A stretch of 48,986 nucleotides of DNA from Aquitalea magnusonii (GTDB lineage: Bacteria; Pseudomonadota; Gammaproteobacteria; Burkholderiales; Chromobacteriaceae). The stretch lies in NCBI RefSeq assembly GCF_003202035.1, contig NZ_QJKC01000017.1, positions 1 through 48,986 of the forward strand. The letters are read 5' to 3'. The notes beneath the pieces are model-generated. The model worked only from the letters and a program-made list of their open reading frames with translations, searched no databases and was not told the DNA's origin. This document shows, one piece after another, positions 13,600 through 16,112 of the stretch (position 1 is the stretch's first letter; each line of letters begins with the position of its first letter). The position numbers were made by a program, and so were the translations under genes.

Positions 13600-14289
13600 T
13601 CAGTGGTGGCGGGCGGCTTGCAGCAGGGCGCGGGCCAGCGGCGGGCATTGTCCTTGCAGGGCGGCGCGCTCGGATTGAAACAGGGTGGCGATGAAGAAGG
13701 GATGGCCGCTCAGCTCGACTGCGCGCACTTCGCCATCTTCATCAAAGGCGGTGGCTTGCAGGGGGCCATTGGTCAGTTCGCTGGCAAAGGCCGGGTTCAG
13801 TCCGTAGCGACAGCGATAGCCTTCCATGGCGGATGCCTGTCCATAAATGGCGGCCAGTTGCGAGCCGGCGGCAAAGCGGACTTCGGCCCGGGTTTCCACC
13901 AGGGCGCAGCTGAGCGGGGCGATGACGGCGCGCGCGGCAGCGGGGGCGGTTTCGCCATGCTCGGCATCCTGCCAGCCCAGTACATGGCGGGCGTATTCGA
14001 GAATGGCGTGCTGGAAACCGCCGCAGCTGCCCAGAAAGGGGATGCCCTGTTCGCGGGCATGGCGAATGGCCGTCAGTGCGCCGTCCATATTGCGATAGGG
14101 GCTGGCCGGTACGCACCAGATGGCGGCATGGCCTGCCAGATCTGCCGCACTGTGGATGCGGTCGGTAGCGAGCCACACCGGCTGCACCTCCACATCCAGC
14201 TGGCCGGCGGCCAGCTCCAGCGCCAGCGGGATGGCCTGATGGGCAGCCACGCCGGGATCAAAGTCGCCTACCAGTGCGATGCGGGTCAT
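13600..14289 (-). CDS. CTP-synthase C-terminal-domain-related class I glutamine-amidotransferase-like protein
   Basis: This is a 229-residue stand-alone relative of the PyrG glutaminase domain. It starts at the ATG at 14289 (AAGGA 7 bases upstream), giving MTRIALVGDFDPGVAAHQAI. The nucleophile elbow is FLGSCGGFQHAILEYA with Cys89. The segment that carries the catalytic His-x-Glu in PyrG (QFHPEF) reads LFQSER, so Glu207 is kept but the catalytic His is replaced by Gln205. The family is annotated in databases as CTP synthase C-terminal-region-related (seleno)protein, and loss of the His appears typical for it. True glutaminase activity is therefore doubtful, and a redox or binding role is possible. 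It leads the operon with chorismate mutase, creA and ydcF. Confidence 0.78.
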   Translation of the reverse strand: MTRIALVGDFDPGVAAHQAIPLALELAAGQLDVEVQPVWLATDRIHSAADLAGHAAIWCVPASPYRNMDGALTAIRHAREQGIPFLGSCGGFQHAILEYARHVLGWQDAEHGETAPAAARAVIAPLSCALVETRAEVRFAAGSQLAAIYGQASAMEGYRCRYGLNPAFASELTNGPLQATAFDEDGEVRAVELSGHPFFIATLFQSERAALQGQCPPLARALLQAARHH

Positions 14290-14344
14290 GGTCAGTCCTT
14301 TTGCGGGTTTGATTGATATCGACCAGATGTTTGTTAAGTAGTGA

Positions 14345-14373
14345 TTTGTAAAAAAATTACAGATTGCGATCAA
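14345..14373 (-). promoter_or_regulatory. Predicted sigma-70 promoter of the amidotransferase-aroQ-creA-ydcF operon
   Basis: Read on the - strand, TTGATC (14368-14373) and TACAAA (14345-14350) are separated by 17 bases, about 55 bases upstream of the ATG at 14289. Both hexamers match at four of six positions. Confidence 0.5.
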
Positions 14374-14378
14374 TATAA

Positions 14379-14418
14379 CTGCGTGCATCACAAGCCGGAT
14401 CGACCGGGATGCACGCAG
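14379..14418. terminator. 11-base-pair perfect hairpin between trpS and the downstream operon
   Basis: CTGCGTGCATC (14379-14389) and GATGCACGCAG (14408-14418) are perfectly complementary around an 18-base loop that itself contains CCGG/CCGG. On the - strand it follows trpS by about 125 bases and is followed by the AT-rich TTATATTG, so it could be a terminator for trpS. It also lies just upstream of the predicted operon promoter and might be an operator. Confidence 0.5.
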
Positions 14419-14543
14419 CAGCGCTGGCGGCTGAGAGTGGCTAACAAGGGCGTAGCCTTTCCGGGGCAAGCTGCGCCGACGCCGGCAGTAGCCGAGGTAG
14501 GGCAGGAGGGCGCATGGCTGCCGCAGGGTTTTGCTGGTGGCGC

Positions 14544-15566
<1,023 letters not shown>

Positions 15567-15623
15567 GTCGGGTTCCTGTTGGTAATCAAGCAAGGGAAAC
15601 CATCGACAAGGAGGAACGTAGAC

Positions 15624-15709
15624 AAAACAAAACCCGGATCCGCCTTGTCGGCAGCCTCCGGGTTGTATGCGTGCGCAGTCGCCGGTGCCACCTCAGAAGA
15701 GGCGCCACC
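15624..15709 (-). promoter_or_regulatory. Predicted tryptophan attenuator of trpS (pause hairpin and terminator)
   Basis: Reading the - strand from 15709 downwards, the first hairpin pairs GGTGGCGCCTC with GAGGTGGCACC around TTCT (15684-15709). Its 5' arm overlaps two of the three Trp codons of the leader peptide. The second structure pairs AACCCGGA with TCCGGGTT (15631-15664), with an inner GC stem, and is followed by TTTTGTTTTG, a classic intrinsic terminator. The 3' arm of the first hairpin contains GGCACCGG, which can instead pair with CCGG and TGCC of the terminator's 5' arm (with a bulge), a candidate antiterminator. The layout matches ribosome-mediated attenuation as known for trp biosynthetic operons, here in front of trpS. 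Confidence 0.75.
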
Positions 15710-15746
15710 ACCAGTTGAAGGATGCGAATGCGTTGCGTGAGTTCAT
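15693..15746 (-). CDS. Tryptophan leader peptide of trpS (17 codons, three consecutive Trp)
   Basis: The short frame encodes MNSRNAFASFNWWWRLF followed by TGA. Three adjacent TGG codons (15705-15713) in 17 codons are far more than expected by chance and are the hallmark of a Trp attenuator leader. The stop codon lies in the loop region of the first attenuator hairpin, so a ribosome finishing the peptide would disrupt it while one stalled at Trp would change the pairing. No Shine-Dalgarno sequence precedes the ATG. The predicted promoter places the transcript start within about a base of the ATG, so translation may be leaderless, as described for trpL of Sinorhizobium. Confidence 0.8.
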   Translation of the reverse strand: MNSRNAFASFNWWWRLF

Positions 15747-15753
15747 GTTTTCT

Positions 15754-15783
15754 ATCACAACACGGCCGGCTTGCCGCCGTCAA
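15754..15783 (-). promoter_or_regulatory. Predicted promoter of the trpS leader transcript
   Basis: On the - strand TTGACG (15778-15783) is separated by 18 bases from TGTGAT (15754-15759), matches of five and four of six to the sigma-70 hexamers. The expected start site falls at about 15747, next to the leader-peptide ATG at 15746. Confidence 0.5.
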
Positions 15784-15848
15784 GCAGCGGCTGTTGCAAA
15801 AATACCCAAAGAAAATGACAGGAACAGTGCGGGATTATTCTGAACAGC

Positions 15849-16112
15849 TCAGACGCTGACATCGATCACACTGCCCAGCGCCGGGGCGGCTTGCTGGTGG
15901 TCCTGGGCCGCTCTGCCGGGGAAGGCGTGGTCCGGCTGTTGCTGCCCGGCGGCAGATTGCTGCTGATCGTGGCGGGCTTCCGCCATTTCCTTGCGCAGTT
16001 CGCCGGAGAGCACGGGGGTGTCCGGTTTGCCGCTGACGCCGGCCAGCTGCGTTCCCTGGCGCCAACTGCCTGGTGCATAGCTGTGCCAGCTGGTGATGGG
16101 GAGGATGAACAT
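15849..16112 (-). CDS. Hypothetical small protein (87 residues), Gln/Ala-rich C-terminal half
   Basis: The ATG at 16112 is preceded by GGAG 7 bases upstream. The protein starts MFILPITSWHSYAPGSW and continues with a hydrophilic stretch rich in Gln, Ala, Asp and His (for example EMAEARHDQQQSAAGQQQPD) and ends GSVIDVSV. It has no signal peptide or membrane segment and I recognise no family. It lies between the ppsR terminator and the trpS leader, on the same strand as both, so it has its own transcription unit. An 8-base perfect inverted repeat lies 64-85 bases upstream. It is probably real given the ribosome-binding site, but could be spurious. Confidence 0.45.
   Translation of the reverse strand: MFILPITSWHSYAPGSWRQGTQLAGVSGKPDTPVLSGELRKEMAEARHDQQQSAAGQQQPDHAFPGRAAQDHQQAAPALGSVIDVSV

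Follow-up and report, generated by a model that had tools for sequence, protein, structure and literature searches.

Escherichia coli trpL is the attenuator of the trp operon, and in Firmicutes trpS is controlled by the T-box, where tRNA binds the RNA directly and no leader peptide takes part. In Streptomyces, an auxiliary antibiotic-resistant trpS is reported, in the title of Vecchione and Sello (2010, J Bacteriol, cited in PMC4787780), to be regulated by ribosome-mediated transcriptional attenuation, an attenuator was predicted for trpS2 of S. avermitilis (PMC1262725), and a leaderless trpL2-trpS was detected by RNA-seq in S. lividans (PMC8079986). Ribosome profiling of Caulobacter crescentus revealed a short leader frame ahead of trpS (PMC4117421), and trpL of the Sinorhizobium trpLE(G) attenuator starts at its ATG (PMC7298713). 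For Deinococcus TrpRS II, the accessible part of PMC9437257 describes induction by radiation damage and nothing further on regulation; it also records that the Streptomyces counterpart resists indolmycin.

Here, a locus of Aquitalea magnusonii was analyzed within the window, i.e., the whole 48,986-nt stretch of contig NZ_QJKC01000017.1. The region upstream of its trpS gene very probably acts as a ribosome-mediated transcription attenuator, which would turn on a spare TrpRS II when Trp-tRNA falls.

Architecture of the element

The features of the locus are listed in Table 1. The promoter, the WWW frame, the hairpin over the Trp and stop codons and the GC-rich terminator of the original prediction were all recovered on the minus strand, coordinates included. 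The element (15783-15624) ends 57 nt ahead of trpS and combines a tandem-Trp frame, an intrinsic terminator and an exclusive antiterminator that uses the terminator 5' arm. The leader RNA folded with -54.5 kcal/mol (z -3.3), a value reached by none of 200 shuffles. A simple promoter/terminator scan reported neither the promoter nor the terminator of the attenuator; by our reading of its rules, the -10 element lacks the A demanded at position 2 and the terminator stem holds an internal loop. The case for the attenuator therefore rests on conservation. Downstream of trpS on the same strand, a frame at window positions 13600-14469 matched the CTP synthase C-terminal region-related (seleno)protein family PRK06186.

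Table 1. Features of the trpS locus in window coordinates
Feature	Position	Strand	Basis
-35 element, TTGACG	15778..15783	-	Read from sequence; TTGAC position kept in family
Extended -10 element, TG-T-TGTGAT, 18 nt behind -35	15754..15762	-	Sequence; also in relatives
Leader peptide frame, MNSRNAFASFNWWWRLF-stop, 17 codons, without Shine-Dalgarno	15693..15746	-	Sequence and family conservation
Leader ATG; leader TGA	15746; 15695-15693	-	Sequence
Three Trp codons, WWW (region 1)	15705..15713	-	Sequence
Hairpin 1:2, covering Trp codons and stop codon	15683..15710	-	Folding; family alignment
Antiterminator 2:3 (10 pairs), incompatible with hairpin 1:2 and with the terminator	15650..15692	-	Alignment; stall-state folds
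Intrinsic terminator 3:4 with T-run	15624..15664	-	Folding, T-run rule, alignment
Terminator stem, then TTGTTTTG	15664-15631	-	Sequence and folding
trpS, auxiliary TrpRS II, 340 aa	14544..15566	-	Start ATG 15566
trpS Shine-Dalgarno, AGGAA	15573..15577	-	Sequence

The trpS gene of the locus encodes an auxiliary TrpRS

The genome carries two trpS genes, the housekeeping copy lying elsewhere. Among solved structures, the window TrpRS came closest to 1yi8 and to 2a4m, which bears the name TrpRS II; both are Deinococcus TrpRS II enzymes. Identity to the other TrpRS of the genome was 48% and 35% in two pieces. Judged by sequence, the window gene is an auxiliary TrpRS II distinct from the housekeeping enzyme; the call as trpS stood, and that this is not the cell's housekeeping trpS had been missed. 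The housekeeping trpS begins ~14 nt after the apparent end of the upstream frame, which leaves no room for a leader in this genome, the one checked.

The ADxxALT motif has Gln in 80 of 80 loci of the TrpRS II type; the housekeeping copy has His at this residue. This His is presumably equivalent to H43 of Bacillus stearothermophilus TrpRS. In that enzyme, H43 is tied to indolmycin sensitivity and H43N confers resistance, according to the accessible text of PMC4899734. We infer that TrpRS II may be insensitive to natural TrpRS inhibitors such as indolmycin.

Among 61 Chromobacteriaceae genomes, trpS of the TrpRS II type was found in 58 and both TrpRS types in 54. Three genomes had the other type only (G029, G031, and G032), and in four (G039, G041, G042, and G043) TrpRS II was the only TrpRS found. 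These four keep the leader (4/4) and mostly the terminator (3/4), so the switch can also precede a sole TrpRS, which suggests that an essential gene can be run on an attenuator switch. They also favor a plainer account, in which the same switch would be a self-adjusting supply of Trp-tRNA without any link to inhibitors, whereas the coexistence of both types in 54/61 genomes and the invariant Gln in place of His speak against it. We regard this account as possible though doubtful; the mechanism is shared, and its probability overlaps that of the spare-enzyme attenuator preferred here.

Conservation of the tandem-Trp frame

A frame of the form ATG..WW..stop was present ahead of the TrpRS II trpS in 57 of the 58 family genomes having the gene. 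In 56 of these (all but locus L134), its start lay 189 to 228 nt upstream of a conserved TrpRS motif. WWW occurred in 37 of the 57, and the others had at least two adjacent TGG codons. The 58th genome (G030) carries MPSRSSLPSLNWRR-stop with one Trp, behind TTGACA.

Eighty loci were named, L001-L009 being near relatives (Aquitalea, Chromobacterium, Vogesella, Pseudogulbenkiania, and others). Applied to L010-L080 (71 loci), the strict frame rule accepted 44, which include Burkholderia, Paraburkholderia, Cupriavidus, Herbaspirillum, Massilia, and Silvimonas. Because the single-Trp leader of L016 (Crenobacter) is identical to that of G030, the count outside the family becomes 44/70. L016 is one of the 27 loci failing the rule. 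Nine others, six of them Janthinobacterium, do contain a WW frame, but its tail is longer or its start codon is not ATG, and in 17 no WW frame was found; named loci without one include Collimonas, Undibacterium, Duganella, Herminiimonas, and Methylobacillus. The upstream alignment across relatives proposed with the original prediction thus showed the Trp-rich frame to be conserved within the family (57/58) and in part beyond it (44/70).

TrpRS II itself was matched in 8 of 274 genomes in a class-wide survey (E <= 1e-80), the own genome included and the others 45 to 58% identical, and in 42 of 300 genomes in an order-wide survey (E <= 1e-100), nine of them within the family. Under rules looser than the strict count, the order-wide survey showed the WW frame at 18 of 34 loci outside the family.

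That the frame and hairpins arose by chance is a negligible prospect. It can appeal to the silence of the simple scan, but the WW frame was found in 101 of 128 loci on the forward strand vs 0 of 128 on the reverse strand and 11 of 2,560 dinucleotide shuffles, and the genome holds a single strong covariance-model match; the strand and shuffle controls refute chance origin. The 128 loci omit L001-L009, which duplicate family genomes, and L141, which has no WW. The Trp-codon word TGGTGGTGGCGCC occurred 7 times in the genome vs 2 for the reversed control, so the word alone is not diagnostic.

Arg directly follows the last Trp in 107 of 110 frames. Across 39 distinct 17-codon family leaders, variation was about equal at all three codon positions; since the rest of the peptide drifts, what matters appears to be the frame and its Trp codons and not the peptide product. 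Selection on the peptide beyond the Trp codons and the following Arg was found to be unsupported, the codon-position test being flat. This bears on the alternative that the main role of the element is to provide a terminated small RNA, or a leader peptide, that acts in trans, with trpS control secondary. S. meliloti offers the parallel, its trpL likewise starting at the ATG and its products rnTrpL and peTrpL acting in trans (PMC7298713, as excerpted), but the peptide at the present loci appears unselected in this sense and the element remains adjacent to TrpRS II across families. We consider a predominantly trans-acting role improbable.

Promoter spacing and predicted leaderless start

In 53 distinct family sequences, TTGAC started 37 nt (31 sequences) or 36 nt (21 sequences) before the leader ATG, i.e., in 52 of 53; the exception, L138, conforms if an ATG nine bases upstream is taken as the start. 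Among 43 distinct sequences from L010-L080, TATACT was located 12 to 14 nt before the ATG in 26 and TTGAC 35 to 37 nt before it in 15. These spacings are what a transcription start at or next to the leader ATG would predict.

An anti-Shine-Dalgarno duplex of -4 kcal/mol or below was predicted for 1 of 53 family leaders vs 48 of 52 family trpS starts, and for 3 of 43 leaders vs 28 of 38 trpS starts outside the family; shuffled leader upstream sequences attain this value in 35% (family) and 6% (others). The fixed promoter-ATG distance and leaders without a Shine-Dalgarno sequence lend comparative support to the predicted leaderless state, with a start site placed by inference.

Alternative pairings of the leader RNA

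Helix counts were taken from an alignment of 50 distinct family sequences. Hairpin 1:2 had 94.9% of cells paired, antiterminator 2:3 92.5% and terminator 3:4 86.6%; with the partners slid by one to three columns, the values dropped to 26 to 68%, 20 to 65%, and 18 to 53%, respectively. For the terminator, 15 cells were changed on both sides and the covariation score was 0.067, each attained by 1 of 500 shuffles, but only 4 pairs were changed on both sides, a number attained by 70 of 500 shuffles and by the slid versions. Almost no covariation was seen in hairpin 1:2 and antiterminator 2:3 in these 50 sequences; both are nearly invariant and therefore rest on conservation. Covariation had been suggested as a check on both hairpins, and it was obtained for the terminator and hardly at all for hairpin 1:2.

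When a ribosome was assumed to occupy the Trp codons, folding of the RNA left free, as far as the terminator 5' arm, paired region 2 with that arm in all 19 sequences inspected (7, 6, and 6 from the family, Burkholderia-type, and Massilia-type groups, respectively). The pairings were compared with shuffles in family, Burkholderia-type, and Massilia-type sequences, omitting duplicates and loci without a placed terminator. Pairing of region 2 with the terminator arm beat 95% of shuffles in 28/38, 21/22, and 4/11 sequences, respectively, and pairing of region 1 with region 2 did so in 21/38, 6/22, and 7/11. In the window's own sequence, the 1:2 pairing was matched by 1 of 200 shuffles and the 2:3 pairing by 12 of 200, just under the 95% line. 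The Burkholderia terminator has a different sequence, GATGCCGCC..GGCGGCATTT, and region 2 there (GGCGGC) matches that terminator.

The strict rule placed a terminator with a T-run in 46 of the 57 loci of the family and in 35 of 44 elsewhere. In the 11 family loci where this rule placed none, the terminator looked degenerate in a five-genome group (L106-L110) and in L137, the T-run was weak in L115, L118, and L121 and absent in L135, and L139 failed by position alone, its stem starting early. The alternative hairpins could also serve control of trpS translation through a hidden Shine-Dalgarno sequence in place of transcription; that sequence, however, lies ~46 nt past the T-run (15577-15573) and outside the three helices counted, which makes translational control very unlikely.

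Proposed mechanism

The comparative data support the predicted anatomy, a complete ribosome-mediated Trp attenuator with a leaderless WWW peptide. Sequence analysis showed the elements and how well they are conserved, pairings that exclude one another, the geometry of the promoter and a second trpS; the transcription start, stalling and read-through belong to the model that follows. RNA polymerase would start at the A of the leader ATG, and since transcription is proposed to start there, a ribosome would load directly on the leaderless mRNA and trail the polymerase. With plentiful Trp-tRNA, the ribosome would get to the TGA and cover region 2 (GGTGGCACCGG), whereupon the terminator 3:4 would form and transcription would end ahead of trpS. 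With scarce Trp-tRNA, it would stall on TGGTGGTGG and cover region 1; region 2 could then pair with region 3 (CCGGAGGCTGCC), so that the terminator would be blocked and trpS transcribed. If translation does not take place, hairpin 1:2 would form and the terminator would win. Such a switch would supply spare TrpRS during a block of the housekeeping enzyme or a shortage of Trp.

Distribution across hosts and plasmids

A covariance model was built from 50 family sequences; its E-values are rough. It scored the window at 100 bits (E 5.6e-19), the sole strong match in the 4.4-Mb genome, the next having E 0.4. The model was then applied to 93 loci outside the training set (L010-L080 and L225-L246), a match being in place when it lay on the right strand within 260 nt before trpS. 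At E <= 0.05 there were 25 matches in place and 1 elsewhere, and at E <= 1 there were 37 in place and 10 elsewhere, the remaining loci having no in-place match. The family-built model thereby detected the element upstream of trpS in further families and classes, including alpha- and gammaproteobacteria.

Searched at the gathering score, Rfam gave no match of the window to any leader family, the Trp leader among them, or to the T-box. At E <= 10, the region 15500-15900 had three matches, the best with E 0.052 and none a leader, and 15 loci, five of them from Firmicutes or Bacteroidota, had no match to a leader family or T-box.

In a plasmid collection, in which some records are chromosome-sized, 91 records had a TrpRS II relative and 22 were examined. 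The ATG..WW..stop frame was present in 14 of the 22, including records of Methylocystis, Bosea, Roseibium, Agrobacterium, Variovorax, Vibrio, Photobacterium, Aeromonas, E. coli, and Klebsiella as well as a Deinococcus plasmid; a Proteus record, additional to the 14, had a WW frame with a GTG start. Among the 22, no WW frame was found in Rhizobium leguminosarum, Acinetobacter, or five Firmicutes or Bacteroidota records. The collection (e.g., records L228, L243, L246, and L241) thus holds TrpRS II genes with a WW leader from E. coli and Klebsiella, and also a Staphylococcus plasmid copy, which has no WW leader and adjoins a predicted efflux-pump gene.

Whether the leaderless WW frame, the attenuator and TrpRS II make up one inherited unit that moved between phyla, partly on plasmids, is close to an even call, and we lean slightly against it. 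If true, the unit would be a self-contained spare-TrpRS cassette that would work in any host at once, because its sensor would be the host ribosome and host tRNA-Trp.

A Trp leader upstream of trpE

A further Trp leader frame, MTILPAPASWRWQR-stop, precedes trpE at a locus that lies outside the window (L142, 1328-1372; G000:C7). A WRW frame was present at 21 of 30 family trpE loci, two of these frames running on to 38 codons, and several codons showed synonymous changes. A clear T-run terminator was not seen in the trpE leader sequences inspected, and this leader is perhaps another type of control.

Discussion

Searches of the open-licence literature turned up no account of attenuation at trpS for beta- or gammaproteobacteria, which is no proof of absence; the word trpS is absent from the main text of PMC2965389 and PMC4833913. 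The original view that leader-peptide control of trpS is poorly described may hold for these two classes, but for Streptomyces such control is in print. Two aspects are apparently new, at least to us, on comparative grounds: the conservation of a predicted leaderless form across Betaproteobacteria, and the occurrence of corresponding leaders, partly on plasmids, ahead of TrpRS II genes of alpha- and gammaproteobacteria and of Deinococcus.

With this element, a synthetase gene of proteobacteria would be switched by tRNA charging as sensed by the ribosome, a task for which Firmicutes use T-boxes. It is widespread, has no Rfam match and is easy to test. The switch is linked to a type of TrpRS whose Streptomyces counterpart resists indolmycin (PMC9437257), and its strict, predicted leaderless geometry would offer a clean natural system for studying how a ribosome that loads at a bare 5' AUG stays in step with the polymerase.

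Among known systems, the trp operon attenuators (E. coli trpL and Sinorhizobium trpLE(G)) share the logic of exclusive hairpins with the window element, but they control biosynthesis genes, and the window element would control a synthetase gene. The T-box of Firmicutes responds to the same signal, uncharged tRNA-Trp; it binds the tRNA directly, whereas the window element would act through a leader peptide, and the window has no T-box match. Deinococcus TrpRS II is the closest solved relative of the window product, and the copy on the Deinococcus plasmid likewise has a WW frame upstream. The C. crescentus locus resembles the window, by its description, in a short frame on the trpS mRNA, and no attenuator is described for it in the accessible part of PMC4117421. 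S. lividans trpL2-trpS has a leaderless short Trp frame before trpS, as is predicted for the window element, and two hairpins, but its leader MMTRTCTQLWRAA-stop contains one Trp and no uridine-enriched sequence was found in it, according to the accessible part of PMC8079986, in contrast to WWW and a T-run in the window. The auxiliary trpS of Vecchione and Sello (2010), likened here by title alone, is the nearest in kind, an auxiliary TrpRS under ribosome-mediated attenuation, in a phylum different from that of the window's host. The kind of control is thus already known from Streptomyces, and the Betaproteobacteria form is a new, large group of its members.
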